Assembly: GCF_914768045.1 (NCBI RefSeq)
Contig: NZ_CAJZCD010000006.1
Location: 1 to 64,000 of the forward strand
Length of the DNA stretch: 64,000 nucleotides
DNA from: Snodgrassella communis
Lineage (GTDB): Bacteria > Pseudomonadota > Gammaproteobacteria > Burkholderiales > Neisseriaceae
Reading direction: 5' to 3'
Shown here in pieces: positions 8,490 through 11,906 of this stretch. The position numbers and the translations under genes were made by a program. The notes under the pieces were generated by a model, which saw only the letters and a list, made by a program, of their open reading frames with translations, was not told where the DNA came from and did not search any database. The first letter of the stretch is position 1. Every line of letters starts with the position of its first letter.

Positions 8490-11024
8490 TTATAGGCGGT
8501 TTACTCGGCGAATCTGGGGTATGGAATGCAGATCACGGGTGATGAGGTTGAGCTGGTCTAAGTTTTTTACTTGCAGTACAAAACGCAATTCGATAAAACC
8601 TTCTACGCCTTCAAGTTTTTTTGATGTGGTTTCTACTGATTTGATGTTGCCGCCATTAGAAGATATGGCTGCGGCTATGGTGGCTAGCAGGCCATGACTA
8701 TCGATAGCATTCAGACACAGGGTAGTCTGGTAGTTGCTGGCCTGTAGGATGTCCCAGTTGGCATCCAGTTGCAGTTCGGGATCGGTTTTCAGGATGGTGT
8801 TGCAGATATCACGGTGTATGATGATTCCCTGATCTTTAATCAATAGGGCTTTGATGGAGTCGCCGGGAATGGGGTGGCAGCATTTTGCCAGATGAATATG
8901 GGCTGATTCATTGCCGGTGAGGTTAATCGGTGCCAGTTTGATGGTGTTGTTAAAGTGTTCTCCGGCCAGTTCGGCGATGTGCATGGCTACTGAAACGGGT
9001 TGCAGCAGCCCCATGCCAACTTCGCACAGGATATTTTCAAATGAGGTGTTTTTGAGGTGTAAATCGGCCAGATATTTGTCTTTCAGGCTGTCTGAAAGTA
9101 AAACATTTTCGGGTAGCAGGCTTGAGAGTGCCTTTTGCAATAGTTTTTCTCCCAGACGTATGGCATCACTACGATCCATTTTTTTTATTTGGCTGCGGAT
9201 GGCTGTGCGTGCATGGCTGGATACGGTAAAGTCTAGCCATGCCGGTGTGGGATGGCTATTGCTTGATGTGATGATTTCTACTATGTCGCCTGTGTGTAAG
9301 CGGGTGCGTAACGGCATCAGGTTATGGTTGATGCGCGCTGAAACGGTTCGATTGCCAATATCAGTATGGACTGCATAGGCAAAATCCACTGGTGTGGCAC
9401 CTTCTGGTAAGGTGATGATTTTACCTTTAGGGGTAAAAATATATACTTCATTTGGAAATAGATCTGTTTTGACATGCTCTAGGAATTCGATGGCGTTGGC
9501 GCTGTGTGCCTGAATGTCCAGTATGCTTTGCAGCCACTGGTTGGTACGCATCTGGGCTTGATCAAAACTGTTCTGTTCACTATCTTTGTGCATCCAGTAG
9601 CTGGCAATGCCACGTTCGGCTACGGTATCCATTTCATGGGTGCGTATCTGTACTTCTATGGGTAAGCCATAGGGGCCGACGAGTATGGTATGCAGGCTTT
9701 GATAGCCATTGTTCTTGGGAATGGCAATATAATCTTTGATTCGACCCGGTTTGGGTTTGTATAGATTATGTAGGACGCCTAATGCGGTGTAGCAGGCTGG
9801 TATGTTGTTGACGATAACTCGGAATGCATAGATGTCCATTACATCGGCAAAGTGCAGATTTTTCCGGCGCATTTTTTCATAAATGCTGTACAGGTTTTTT
9901 TCTCTGCCTCTTACCTGAGCCTCAATATTGGCGCTGACTAAGCGCTGGCTGAAAGCGCGCAATACTTTGCCCACTACATCGCGCCGGTTACGTCGGGATG
10001 ATTGTATGGCTTTTGCTAATACTTCATAGCGATGGGGGTATAGATGCTGGAAGGCTAAATCCTGCAATTCTCGATAAACGTGATTTAATCCGATGCGATT
10101 GGCCAGTTGCGCATAAATTTCCATGGTTTCTTGGGCAATACGCCTGCGGCTGTCTGGCTTTTTTGCCGACAGGGTGCGCATATTGTGTAATCGGTCGGAT
10201 AATTTGACGATAATTACGCGTACATCTTGAGTCATCGCCATTATCAGTTTGCGAAAGCTTTCGGCCTGTGCTTCCTGCTGGCTGTTGTATTCCAGTTTTT
10301 CCAGCTTGGATAATCCATCTACCATGTTGGCGATGGTTTCGCCAAATTCGGCAATGATTTCTTCTTTGGTGGTGCCTGTGTCCTCCAGTACATCATGCAG
10401 TACGCCGGCGCATAAAGCCTGTATGTCTACGTGCCATTCTGCCAGCTGGGTGGCCACAGCCAGTGGATGGGTAATATATGGCAGGCCACTATTACGAAAT
10501 TGTCCCTGATGTGCTACGGCACCAAATTCGCATGCTTTATTGAGCAGATGCAGGTCTTCTTTGCTCAGGTAAGAAGCAATATGCAGAAGTTTCTTCTGTG
10601 CTTCAGCAATAATGGCTTGATAGCTGCTTTCTATTTGTTGCTGGCAGCATTTCAGCTGGGTGGCGATACTGGTGTGTGATGAGGTATTAATGCTATCAAA
10701 TATTTTCATGCCTACAGGTCCCATAGCCTGACTGGGCATATGTTTATCTGTGGCGGTGATTGATAAGTCTTCAAAGGCTATTTTGATTAAGACTGCTGCA
10801 AGTGCCTGTATGCGTTGCTGGTGTTGCGCCAGTGATGTGGTGATGTCAAAGCTGCGTTTAAGTAGCGCGGTTTTGCCAGCATGCTCAGCTAGGGTGTAAA
10901 TGTAGGCGCAAGCCTGTTCCAGTAATTGCCAGCGTTCCTGTTTGTTCAGATACTCTGTTTGTGCAAACAGGCTATCCCGCCACTGATTAACAGGTGGTTT
11001 ATAGGGTAGGCTGGGTGGGAACAT
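8490..11024 (-). CDS. spoT: Bifunctional (p)ppGpp synthetase/hydrolase SpoT
   Basis: 844 residues, about 140 longer at the N terminus than E. coli SpoT. It makes and degrades the stringent-response alarmone. The hydrolase HD domain is intact (H210-D211 in GVLHDVLEDT; AQAESFRKLIMAM; DRLHNMRTL). The synthetase domain has GREKNLYSIYEKM, DIYAFRVIV, YQSLHT and EVQIRT. A TGS domain (FTPKGKIITLPEGATPVDFAY) and a C-terminal ACT domain follow. Residues 30-86 look like a degenerate second copy of the start of the HD domain (see finding). It lies downstream of gmk and rpoZ on the same strand, as in Neisseria, 15 bases after rpoZ. Confidence 0.96.
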   Translation of the reverse strand: MFPPSLPYKPPVNQWRDSLFAQTEYLNKQERWQLLEQACAYIYTLAEHAGKTALLKRSFDITTSLAQHQQRIQALAAVLIKIAFEDLSITATDKHMPSQAMGPVGMKIFDSINTSSHTSIATQLKCCQQQIESSYQAIIAEAQKKLLHIASYLSKEDLHLLNKACEFGAVAHQGQFRNSGLPYITHPLAVATQLAEWHVDIQALCAGVLHDVLEDTGTTKEEIIAEFGETIANMVDGLSKLEKLEYNSQQEAQAESFRKLIMAMTQDVRVIIVKLSDRLHNMRTLSAKKPDSRRRIAQETMEIYAQLANRIGLNHVYRELQDLAFQHLYPHRYEVLAKAIQSSRRNRRDVVGKVLRAFSQRLVSANIEAQVRGREKNLYSIYEKMRRKNLHFADVMDIYAFRVIVNNIPACYTALGVLHNLYKPKPGRIKDYIAIPKNNGYQSLHTILVGPYGLPIEVQIRTHEMDTVAERGIASYWMHKDSEQNSFDQAQMRTNQWLQSILDIQAHSANAIEFLEHVKTDLFPNEVYIFTPKGKIITLPEGATPVDFAYAVHTDIGNRTVSARINHNLMPLRTRLHTGDIVEIITSSNSHPTPAWLDFTVSSHARTAIRSQIKKMDRSDAIRLGEKLLQKALSSLLPENVLLSDSLKDKYLADLHLKNTSFENILCEVGMGLLQPVSVAMHIAELAGEHFNNTIKLAPINLTGNESAHIHLAKCCHPIPGDSIKALLIKDQGIIIHRDICNTILKTDPELQLDANWDILQASNYQTTLCLNAIDSHGLLATIAAAISSNGGNIKSVETTSKKLEGVEGFIELRFVLQVKNLDQLNLITRDLHSIPQIRRVNRL

Positions 11025-11039
11025 GGCTATTTGCCTGTG

Positions 11040-11243
11040 TTATTTTTGTTTTTTGAGTAGCTCTGTTCCAATTTGGCCGCTGGCAATTTCACGTAAGGCA
11101 ATAACTGTGGGCTTGTCATGATCTTCTTCAACCAGTGCGGTAGCACCATTGGCCAGTTGTCGTGCACGCAAGGCGGCAGTCATAGTGAGGTCAAAGTGAT
11201 TGGGAATACGTCCGATGCAATCTTCTACTGTAATACGAGCCAT
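11040..11243 (-). CDS. rpoZ: RNA polymerase omega subunit
   Basis: 67 residues beginning [20 protein letters not shown], the canonical omega start. Omega helps assemble the beta' subunit and forms part of a ppGpp binding site on RNA polymerase, which fits its placement directly before spoT. The conserved block [14 protein letters not shown] is present. The gene sits between gmk (about 50 bases upstream) and spoT (15 bases downstream), so the three are probably cotranscribed. Confidence 0.97.
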
Positions 11244-11294: not shown

Positions 11295-11906
11295 TTATTC
11301 TCCGGCTAAAATCCGGGTAACTGTTTGACTTTGTGCTTGTGCACGTAATCCGACCGAACGGATAATTGCCAGTAAATCTTGCTCTGCCTGAGTAAGCTCC
11401 TGATTAACAATTACATAATCAAATAGTATGCTTTGTGCAATTTCTTCGCGTGATTTTTCCAGCCGGTAGGCAATCACGTCTTCGCTATCTGTGCCTCGGT
11501 TTTGCAGGCGCTCGGTTAGTTCAGTCATTGAGGGGGGTAAAATAAAAATGCTGGTTGCATCTGGCAGTAAGCGACGGATCTGTTCTGCCCCCTGAACATC
11601 AATTTCTAGAATAACGTTGTAGCCCTGCTGGGTTAATGATTCTACGGCTTTTAAACTGGTGCCATAATAATTGCCATATACATTGGCATGCTCTATAAAG
11701 GCATTGTCGGCAATCATTTCCTCAAATTCACTACGGCTGACAAAATGATAATGTACACCATTTTGCTCTCCTGCACGTGGCATTCTGGTGGTGTGGGAAA
11801 TTGAAATATGAATATCCGGCTGATTGGCACTCAGGCGCGATACCAGAGTGGTTTTGCCTGTTCCTGAAGCAGCAGAAACAATAAAAATATGTCCAGATTG
11901 CAACAT
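11295..11906 (-). CDS. gmk: Guanylate kinase
   Basis: 203 residues. Phosphorylates GMP to GDP. The P-loop SGTGKTT is at 14-20, the GMP-binding segment SHTTRMPRAGEQNGVHYHF follows near 38-56, and the DVQGAEQIR block near 103. Length is standard. It is the first gene of a gmk-rpoZ-spoT operon and is divergent from pyrG across about 165 bases. Confidence 0.97.
   Translation of the reverse strand: MLQSGHIFIVSAASGTGKTTLVSRLSANQPDIHISISHTTRMPRAGEQNGVHYHFVSRSEFEEMIADNAFIEHANVYGNYYGTSLKAVESLTQQGYNVILEIDVQGAEQIRRLLPDATSIFILPPSMTELTERLQNRGTDSEDVIAYRLEKSREEIAQSILFDYVIVNQELTQAEQDLLAIIRSVGLRAQAQSQTVTRILAGE

Follow-up and report, generated by a model that had tools for sequence, protein, structure and literature searches.

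The spoT gene in a 64,000-nucleotide stretch of Snodgrassella communis DNA (contig NZ_CAJZCD010000006.1, hereafter the window) encodes an 844-residue protein that begins with a degenerate copy of SpoT's own N-terminus. ppGpp, the bacterial starvation signal, is made and destroyed by SpoT. The gene occupies positions 8490 to 11024 of the minus strand, on which all features named below lie, and its product consists of a hemi-HD extension followed by the HD, SYNTH, TGS, AH/RIS and ACT domains. The degenerate first copy (copy 1) spans residues 3-112 (10689 to 11018), and its origin from SpoT was established by the comparison of sequence profiles. In our analysis an internal tandem duplication was followed by loss of the catalytic residues from the front copy, which probably now serves as a built-in pseudo-hydrolase module that regulates the switch of SpoT between its two activities.

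The homology is carried by profiles of relatives. When the window's SpoT was taken alone, the internal similarity was weak and suggestive only (BLASTP, residues 25-90 against 152-219, E = 0.004). With the profiles of relatives included, the sequence comparison was decisive: hhalign of 17 extensions against the N-termini of 18 ordinary Neisseriaceae SpoT proteins gave E = 1.6e-12 over columns 3-112, and the same extensions gave E = 2.8e-11 against a broader set of 25 SpoT N-termini and E = 4.8e-9 against their own 17 second copies. An hmmsearch with the extension model recovered all 17 second copies, each with E ≤ 3.1e-12 (hmmsearch E values were computed for a search space of one sequence), and the best E values of the shuffle controls were 8.8e-5 with 1,680 shuffled targets and 3.7e-5 with 1,700 shuffled extensions. 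For the search of the order the profile was built from 14 of the 17 extensions; locus L050, from the same genome as L019, was omitted from the profiles, and L028 failed a motif filter. Searches with the extension alone matched the second copy within the same open reading frame in four genomes of the same genus (E 0.0017 and 0.013, and, without significance, 0.087 and 0.199), and in 56 of the 66 genomes of the family that gave no full-length extension they matched the SpoT N-terminus, identified by position, at E values from 4.6e-8 to 0.021.

A preliminary description of this DNA, made from the letters alone, had proposed that residues 30-86 (10767 to 10937) repeat the beginning of the HD domain in degenerate form and may have arisen by internal duplication. 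The profile homology bears this out, and the residue pairings quoted there are exact. The extent requires correction: residues 30-86 do belong to the repeat, but the copy is larger, reaching from residue 3 to 112 and possibly to about 134. The alignment starts at the N-terminal tail (PxxxYD) ahead of the HD domain, with PSLPYKP against PTAPYDH in the row shown, and the duplicated piece therefore begins at SpoT's own N-terminus and exceeds residues 30-86. Tyr8 of copy 1 aligns with Tyr135 at the head of copy 2, which suggests a repeat unit of about 127 residues, the stretch past residue 112 being too diverged for proof. Residues 113-134 (10623 to 10688), the presumed end of the unit in the alpha6-alpha7 region of copy 1, are weakly alignable in a presumed register; here the profile of 14 extensions aligned to positions 134-137 in three ordinary SpoT proteins.

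The preliminary description had offered, as another origin, a piece resembling the inactive HD domain of RelA. RelA too has an inactive N-terminal HD, and a RelA model searched against the extensions reached an hmmsearch E of 0.00028; this is of the same size as the best shuffles of other models (3.1e-4 to 3.7e-5), the RelA model itself being unshuffled. The extension model gave a best E of 0.018 against 16 RelA N-termini (two of 18 loci failed filters), and hhalign of the extensions against this set gave E = 0.036 with a probability of 1.4. In the positive control, ordinary SpoT aligned with the same RelA set at an hhalign E of 9e-23. The match to SpoT is far stronger, RelA N-termini are not the closest sequence relatives of the extension, and the RelA-type pseudo-HD was ruled out as its source; descent from that domain, or exchange with it, is extremely improbable.

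The remainder of the protein carries the domains of SpoT. HD_4, RelA_SpoT, TGS, RelA_AH_RIS and ACT_4 were the Pfam matches above cut-off, and the real hydrolase domain, residues 164-313 (10086 to 10535), matched HD_4 with E = 3.9e-45. The whole protein scored 717 bits with TIGR00691 (cut-off 499) and 768 bits with PRK11092, the E. coli-type SpoT equivalog, which is below its cut-off of 947 and still the top NCBIfam match. The NCBIfam SpoT model, of 702 positions, matched only from residue 148, in agreement with the earlier statement that E. coli-type SpoT lacks the extension. A Pfam match to HD was obtained neither for the window's extension nor for the 14 of 17 extensions that were scanned singly, because copy 1 is too degenerate for the HD_4 model; the HD_4 hit that the preliminary description had looked for in residues 30-90 was thus absent. 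The match to an unrelated family that would have spoken against its proposal did not appear either. Unrelated profiles matched the window's extension weakly, with a best Pfam E of 0.079, far below cut-off, and a best NCBIfam E of 0.0037 (16 bits, where the cut-off is 751), and the best unrelated Pfam match of the 14 extensions had an E of 0.013. The search of PDB sequences with the extension profile returned no RelA/SpoT homologue (RSH) and gave five matches with E values of 0.018-0.52, namely two flagellins, two designed helical proteins and mt-SAF26.

Copy 1 differs from an HD domain in both its length and its residues. It stops before the helix that carries the DRLHN motif and is not a full HD domain. 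In the real HD domain, R177, H186, H210, D211, E214, D215, D277 and N281, which we take to be the hydrolase residues, are all present (checked in three rows and invariant across 10 aligned rows). In copy 1, as the preliminary description stated, Lys81-Ile82 (10779 to 10784) faces the catalytic His210-Asp211 (10392 to 10397), and this pair was replaced by Lys, Arg or Gln followed by Ile, Thr or Ala in 17 of 17 extensions. Arg57 (10854 to 10856) replaces the first metal-ligand His, presumably the equivalent of RelSeq H53, and is Arg in all 17; Arg71 replaces an invariant Asp, also in all 17. The extension lacks the metal ligands and the His-Asp motif of an RSH hydrolase domain, and the loss of the catalytic residues from copy 1 is clear from the alignments. 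At 105 aligned positions, 24 were invariant in copy 1, with 17 keeping the ordinary SpoT residue and seven being derived.

The real HD domain has also changed in the proteins that carry the extension. Its active-site loop, RNSGLPYITHP in the window (residues 177-187, 10464 to 10496), reads RN[S/T]G[L/V/A]PYITHP in 17 of 17 extension-bearing SpoT proteins and R[K/Q/G/R]SG[E/Q/D]PYI[T/S]HP in 25 of 25 others. E. coli SpoT presumably lacks the loop Lys as well, which makes the Glu position the more unusual of the changes. Substitutions specific to the clade were found at 13 positions and were rejected as a map of an interface, as the Neisseria control gave eight, seven of which repeat sites of the clade from the opposite side.

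The structure of the extension was predicted with AlphaFold2 from ten sequences without templates, giving a mean predicted local distance difference test score (pLDDT) of 89.5, a predicted template modelling score (pTM) of 0.86, and six helices at residues 12-22, 29-48, 52-66, 72-87, 98-111 and 120-149. In a model of residues 1-492 (mean pLDDT 69.8, pTM 0.49), the extension, the HD start and a continuous helix over residues 120-152 (10569 to 10667), which runs from the extension into helix 1 of the real HD domain, were confident. The joining helix had block pLDDT values of 86-92 over residues 121-160 in this model, and of 92, 92 and 79 in the extension model, where it ends at residue 149. Foldseek with the extension model gave nothing significant (best E 0.28, for a designed protein). 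Among the 50 matches listed, 13 were Rel/SpoT chains (E 1.4-6.1, probability 0.13-0.72), of which 12 had TMq scores of 0.45-0.56, and no other listed match exceeded 0.33. When the Foldseek candidates were realigned with VIA-align, the first nine rows were all Rel/SpoT chains with Z scores from 10.2 to 6.8, although, as the tool's own note cautions, helical bundles can reach a Z near 10 by chance; the sequence homology does not depend on these scores. Seven of the nine aligned over 97-111 residues at 2.7-3.3 A with chain residues about 0-152, and the other two, 7qpr_B and 5xnx_A, strayed into other domains with root-mean-square deviations of 5.0 and 7.0. A designed repeat protein (Z 6.2) and then 2qgs (Z 5.6), which we take to be an HD-type protein, followed. 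The structural check proposed in the preliminary description thus returned a confident model whose best structural matches are Rel/SpoT chains, and the extension is predicted to have the helical fold of the N-terminal half of an HD domain.

The survey of SpoT N-termini in the Neisseriaceae that had been suggested at the outset covered 83 genomes, 81 of them with a SpoT match. The full-length extension (E ≤ 1.3e-27) was found in 17 of the 81: 13 in the window's genus, two in genus g2, and one each in g3 and g12. The other 64 SpoT-bearing genomes comprised 63 with stop-to-stop frames of ≤787 residues, too short to hold the extension, and one (G093) in which the N-terminus runs off the contig. 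Of the two genomes with no SpoT match, G008, from the window's genus, had a second, RelA-like RSH match and was missing gmk too, which makes an assembly gap likely; the other (G044) is 81% complete. In a sample of 399 genomes from the order, the extension profile matched 12 at E ≤ 0.001, including the window's genome; the remaining 11 frames were 717-785 residues long, nine of them being SpoT proteins of the family by position and two belonging to another family (E 1.8e-4 and 3.9e-4). In a sample of 200 genomes from the phylum, 82 matched at E ≤ 1e-150, with a frame of 849 residues in the window and of ≤815 residues in the other 81; the 118 genomes with no match at this strict threshold are uninformative. 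A scan of named genomes with one peptide pattern, which is no census, gave nine loci: four Snodgrassella alvi records, S. gandavensis, Snodgrassella sp. CFCC 13594, and three metagenome-assembled genomes labelled as Snodgrassella, Neisseriaceae and Eikenella. The extensions were as low as 39% identical to that of the window.

In a tree of the SpoT core, from which the extension was excluded, the 16 extension-bearing rows formed one clade with support of 99/98, which recurred in every one of 200 bootstrap trees (the tree omitted the second g2 genome; the row dropped was L047). The presence of the extension amounts to one change on this tree, and by its branching the duplication of SpoT's 5' end most likely happened once. 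The same tree did not show the window's genus (g1) as one clade, and G024 (g12), G012 (g1) and the other g1 rows met at an unresolved fork.

The extension is translated with SpoT, judging by the sequence evidence. A mis-called start, with SpoT beginning downstream and residues 1-140 left out of the protein, would accord with the E. coli-type SpoT, which by profile boundaries starts near residue 140 of the window's protein, and with the ATG codons at residues 96, 101 and 106 of the window's gene, from which a shorter protein could start. Against it, the reading frame of the extension is free of stops in 17 genomes, the spoT ATG lies 15 nt from rpoZ, and L009 has no ATG, GTG or TTG from residue 55 to the HD motif, so that with usual start codons any product there that contains the HD domain must include the latter half of the extension or more. 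The ratio of nonsynonymous to synonymous change (dN/dS), about 0.10, argues in the same direction, and the probability of a mis-called start, which was rejected on these four grounds, is negligible. For residues 1-112, dN/dS was 0.104 (21 of 21 pairs) and 0.111 (6 of 6) in two Snodgrassella groups, compared with 0.020 (15 of 21) and 0.027 (4 of 6) for the real HD domain and 0.136 (19 of 21) and 0.150 (3 of 6) for residues 113-145, with dS near saturation and saturated pairs excluded. These values establish, at the level of codon change, that the extension is under purifying selection and is four to five times less constrained than the real HD domain.

We propose that one in-frame tandem duplication of about 380 bp took place at the 5' end of spoT in an ancestor that Snodgrassella shares with three or more further genera of the family, and that it placed a second copy of the N-terminal tail and of HD helices 1 to about 6 ahead of a whole SpoT. 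The front copy lost its metal and substrate residues and is predicted to have kept its helical fold, and the long predicted helix joins it to HD helix 1 of the real domain. Coupled rigidly in this way, the front copy would most likely bias the switch between hydrolase-ON and synthetase-ON states, or let a partner protein act on that switch, by analogy with the pseudo-HD of RelA. We infer the length of the unit, the rigid coupling, the docking site, and the regulatory effect with its sign, and a regulatory role is proposed because dead domains in other long RSH enzymes are regulators. Several observations weigh against this proposal. Only eight of 26 positions that are fixed in ordinary SpoT are retained as consensus in copy 1, and its protein-level change is four to five times faster than that of the HD domain; both are consistent with a tolerated appendage that merely preserves its fold. 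The altered loop and the duplication coincide on one branch, which is a single event, and they may be unrelated. The model of residues 1-492 is poor over much of its remainder and was too weak for the placement of a docking site. To these are added the Foldseek result, the chance level of the VIA-align scores, the near-saturation of dS and the internal ATG codons described above.

The front copy could also be a docking platform whose main task is to bind a partner and not to act on its own HD domain; the partner might be a regulator or the ribosome, or another SpoT reached through HD-like contacts. A fold that is predicted autonomously would suit such a role, as would newly arisen invariant residues (Arg57, Arg71 and Lys28 among them) and the control of long RSH enzymes by protein partners: ACP, Rsd and YmgB act on SpoT according to the available sections of PMC10704370, and NirD acts on the catalytic half of RelA according to those of PMC13376610. 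However, the SpoT partners in the same sections of PMC10704370 bind TGS or other C-terminal parts and not HD, and we regard this reading as possible but clearly less likely. We consider it rather improbable that the extension is a relic, that is, a neutral and functionless tandem duplication retained because internal start codons disappeared and because its fold has to stay free of aggregation. The extension evolves faster than every tested SpoT region outside it, and the start codons needed for its loss are absent in at least L009, which together with the low retention of SpoT-fixed positions would fit a relic; yet it has been kept in all 16 clade rows of the tree, its dN/dS speaks for constraint, and 24 of its 105 aligned positions are invariant with seven of them derived. 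A still more doubtful reading turns the hemi-HD into a converted ligand sensor, to which ppGpp or some other anionic metabolite would bind and whose signal would travel along the fused helix to the real HD domain. The old metal and ppGpp pocket would now be basic (Arg57, Arg71 and, at 81, usually Lys or Gln, next to the retained Asp86), and the loop of the real HD domain might have been retuned in the same ancestor from RKSGEP to RNSG[LVA]P. If true, such a sensor would be an allosteric input built from the enzyme's own catalytic domain.

The preferred reading, a dead front copy that regulates the SpoT switch, has parallels in known systems. Long RSH enzymes toggle between hydrolase-ON and synthetase-ON states (available sections of PMC13376610), and the pseudo-HD of RelA switches the RelA synthetase (available sections of PMC8012599). 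The extension is likewise a catalytically dead domain of HD fold at the N-terminus of a long RSH; unlike the RelA pseudo-HD, which is the sole HD of RelA and belongs to the RelA lineage, it is a half-length extra copy placed before an intact HD in SpoT. An N-terminal extension of 50 residues is reported to lower both the synthetase and the hydrolase activity of Mycobacterium avium Rel, a bifunctional RSH whose HD it likewise precedes as additional sequence, but in the available text of PMC12561398 it is largely disordered and is not described as a duplication, whereas the present extension is a copy of the HD start of about 112-134 residues that is predicted to be folded. Acinetobacter SpoT also keeps a dead catalytic domain, a pseudo-SYNTH proposed to stabilise or regulate the live HD (available sections of PMC9974481); that domain arose by decay of an existing one, whereas the Snodgrassella extension is an added copy. 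Ordinary Neisseriaceae SpoT, of about 720 residues, shares the remaining domains, and copy 1 resembles its first 112 or so residues from the tail on; it has no repeat, and the loop residue that is L, V or A in the extension clade is E, Q or D there. The terms "tandem" and "n-terminal extension" do not occur in the main text of the 2011 RSH survey in the form available (PMC3153485), and no report of a duplicated HD in SpoT, or of SpoT in Snodgrassella, was present among the matches listed, by title and opening of the abstract, from the open-licence PubMed Central literature. Regulation by a pseudo-HD is already known; the matches listed included no case in which a live SpoT gained a dead half-HD by partial duplication within its gene.

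In terms of the gene neighbourhood, the two genes upstream of spoT are presumably rpoZ (11040 to 11243) and gmk (11295 to 11906), and gmk was also located within 1 kb of spoT in four of four extension-free genomes that were checked. Three other SpoT loci of the family had unusual features. In G020 (genus g8), the match to a 771-residue SpoT frame (C3:1247935-1249965) was split into 140-634 and 709-843, and the region past TGS was unusually diverged. G092 (genus g5) had two identically scoring SpoT matches on contigs C17 and C22, from a recent duplication or an assembly artefact, and G081 (genus g10; C1:359354-361375) had one in-frame TAG within the SpoT match, from a sequencing error or a truncated C-terminus.

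Most bacteria control their starvation signal with long RSH enzymes, in whose switching pseudo-catalytic domains play a central part. In the known cases considered here a whole catalytic domain decayed after gene duplication; in the present one, part of the domain was copied within the gene, its catalytic residues were lost, and selection has retained it. The extension offers one origin, diverged copies, and close extension-free relatives as natural controls. Snodgrassella is a host-restricted symbiont of the bee gut, and it is in such an organism that the tuning of the starvation signal may matter.

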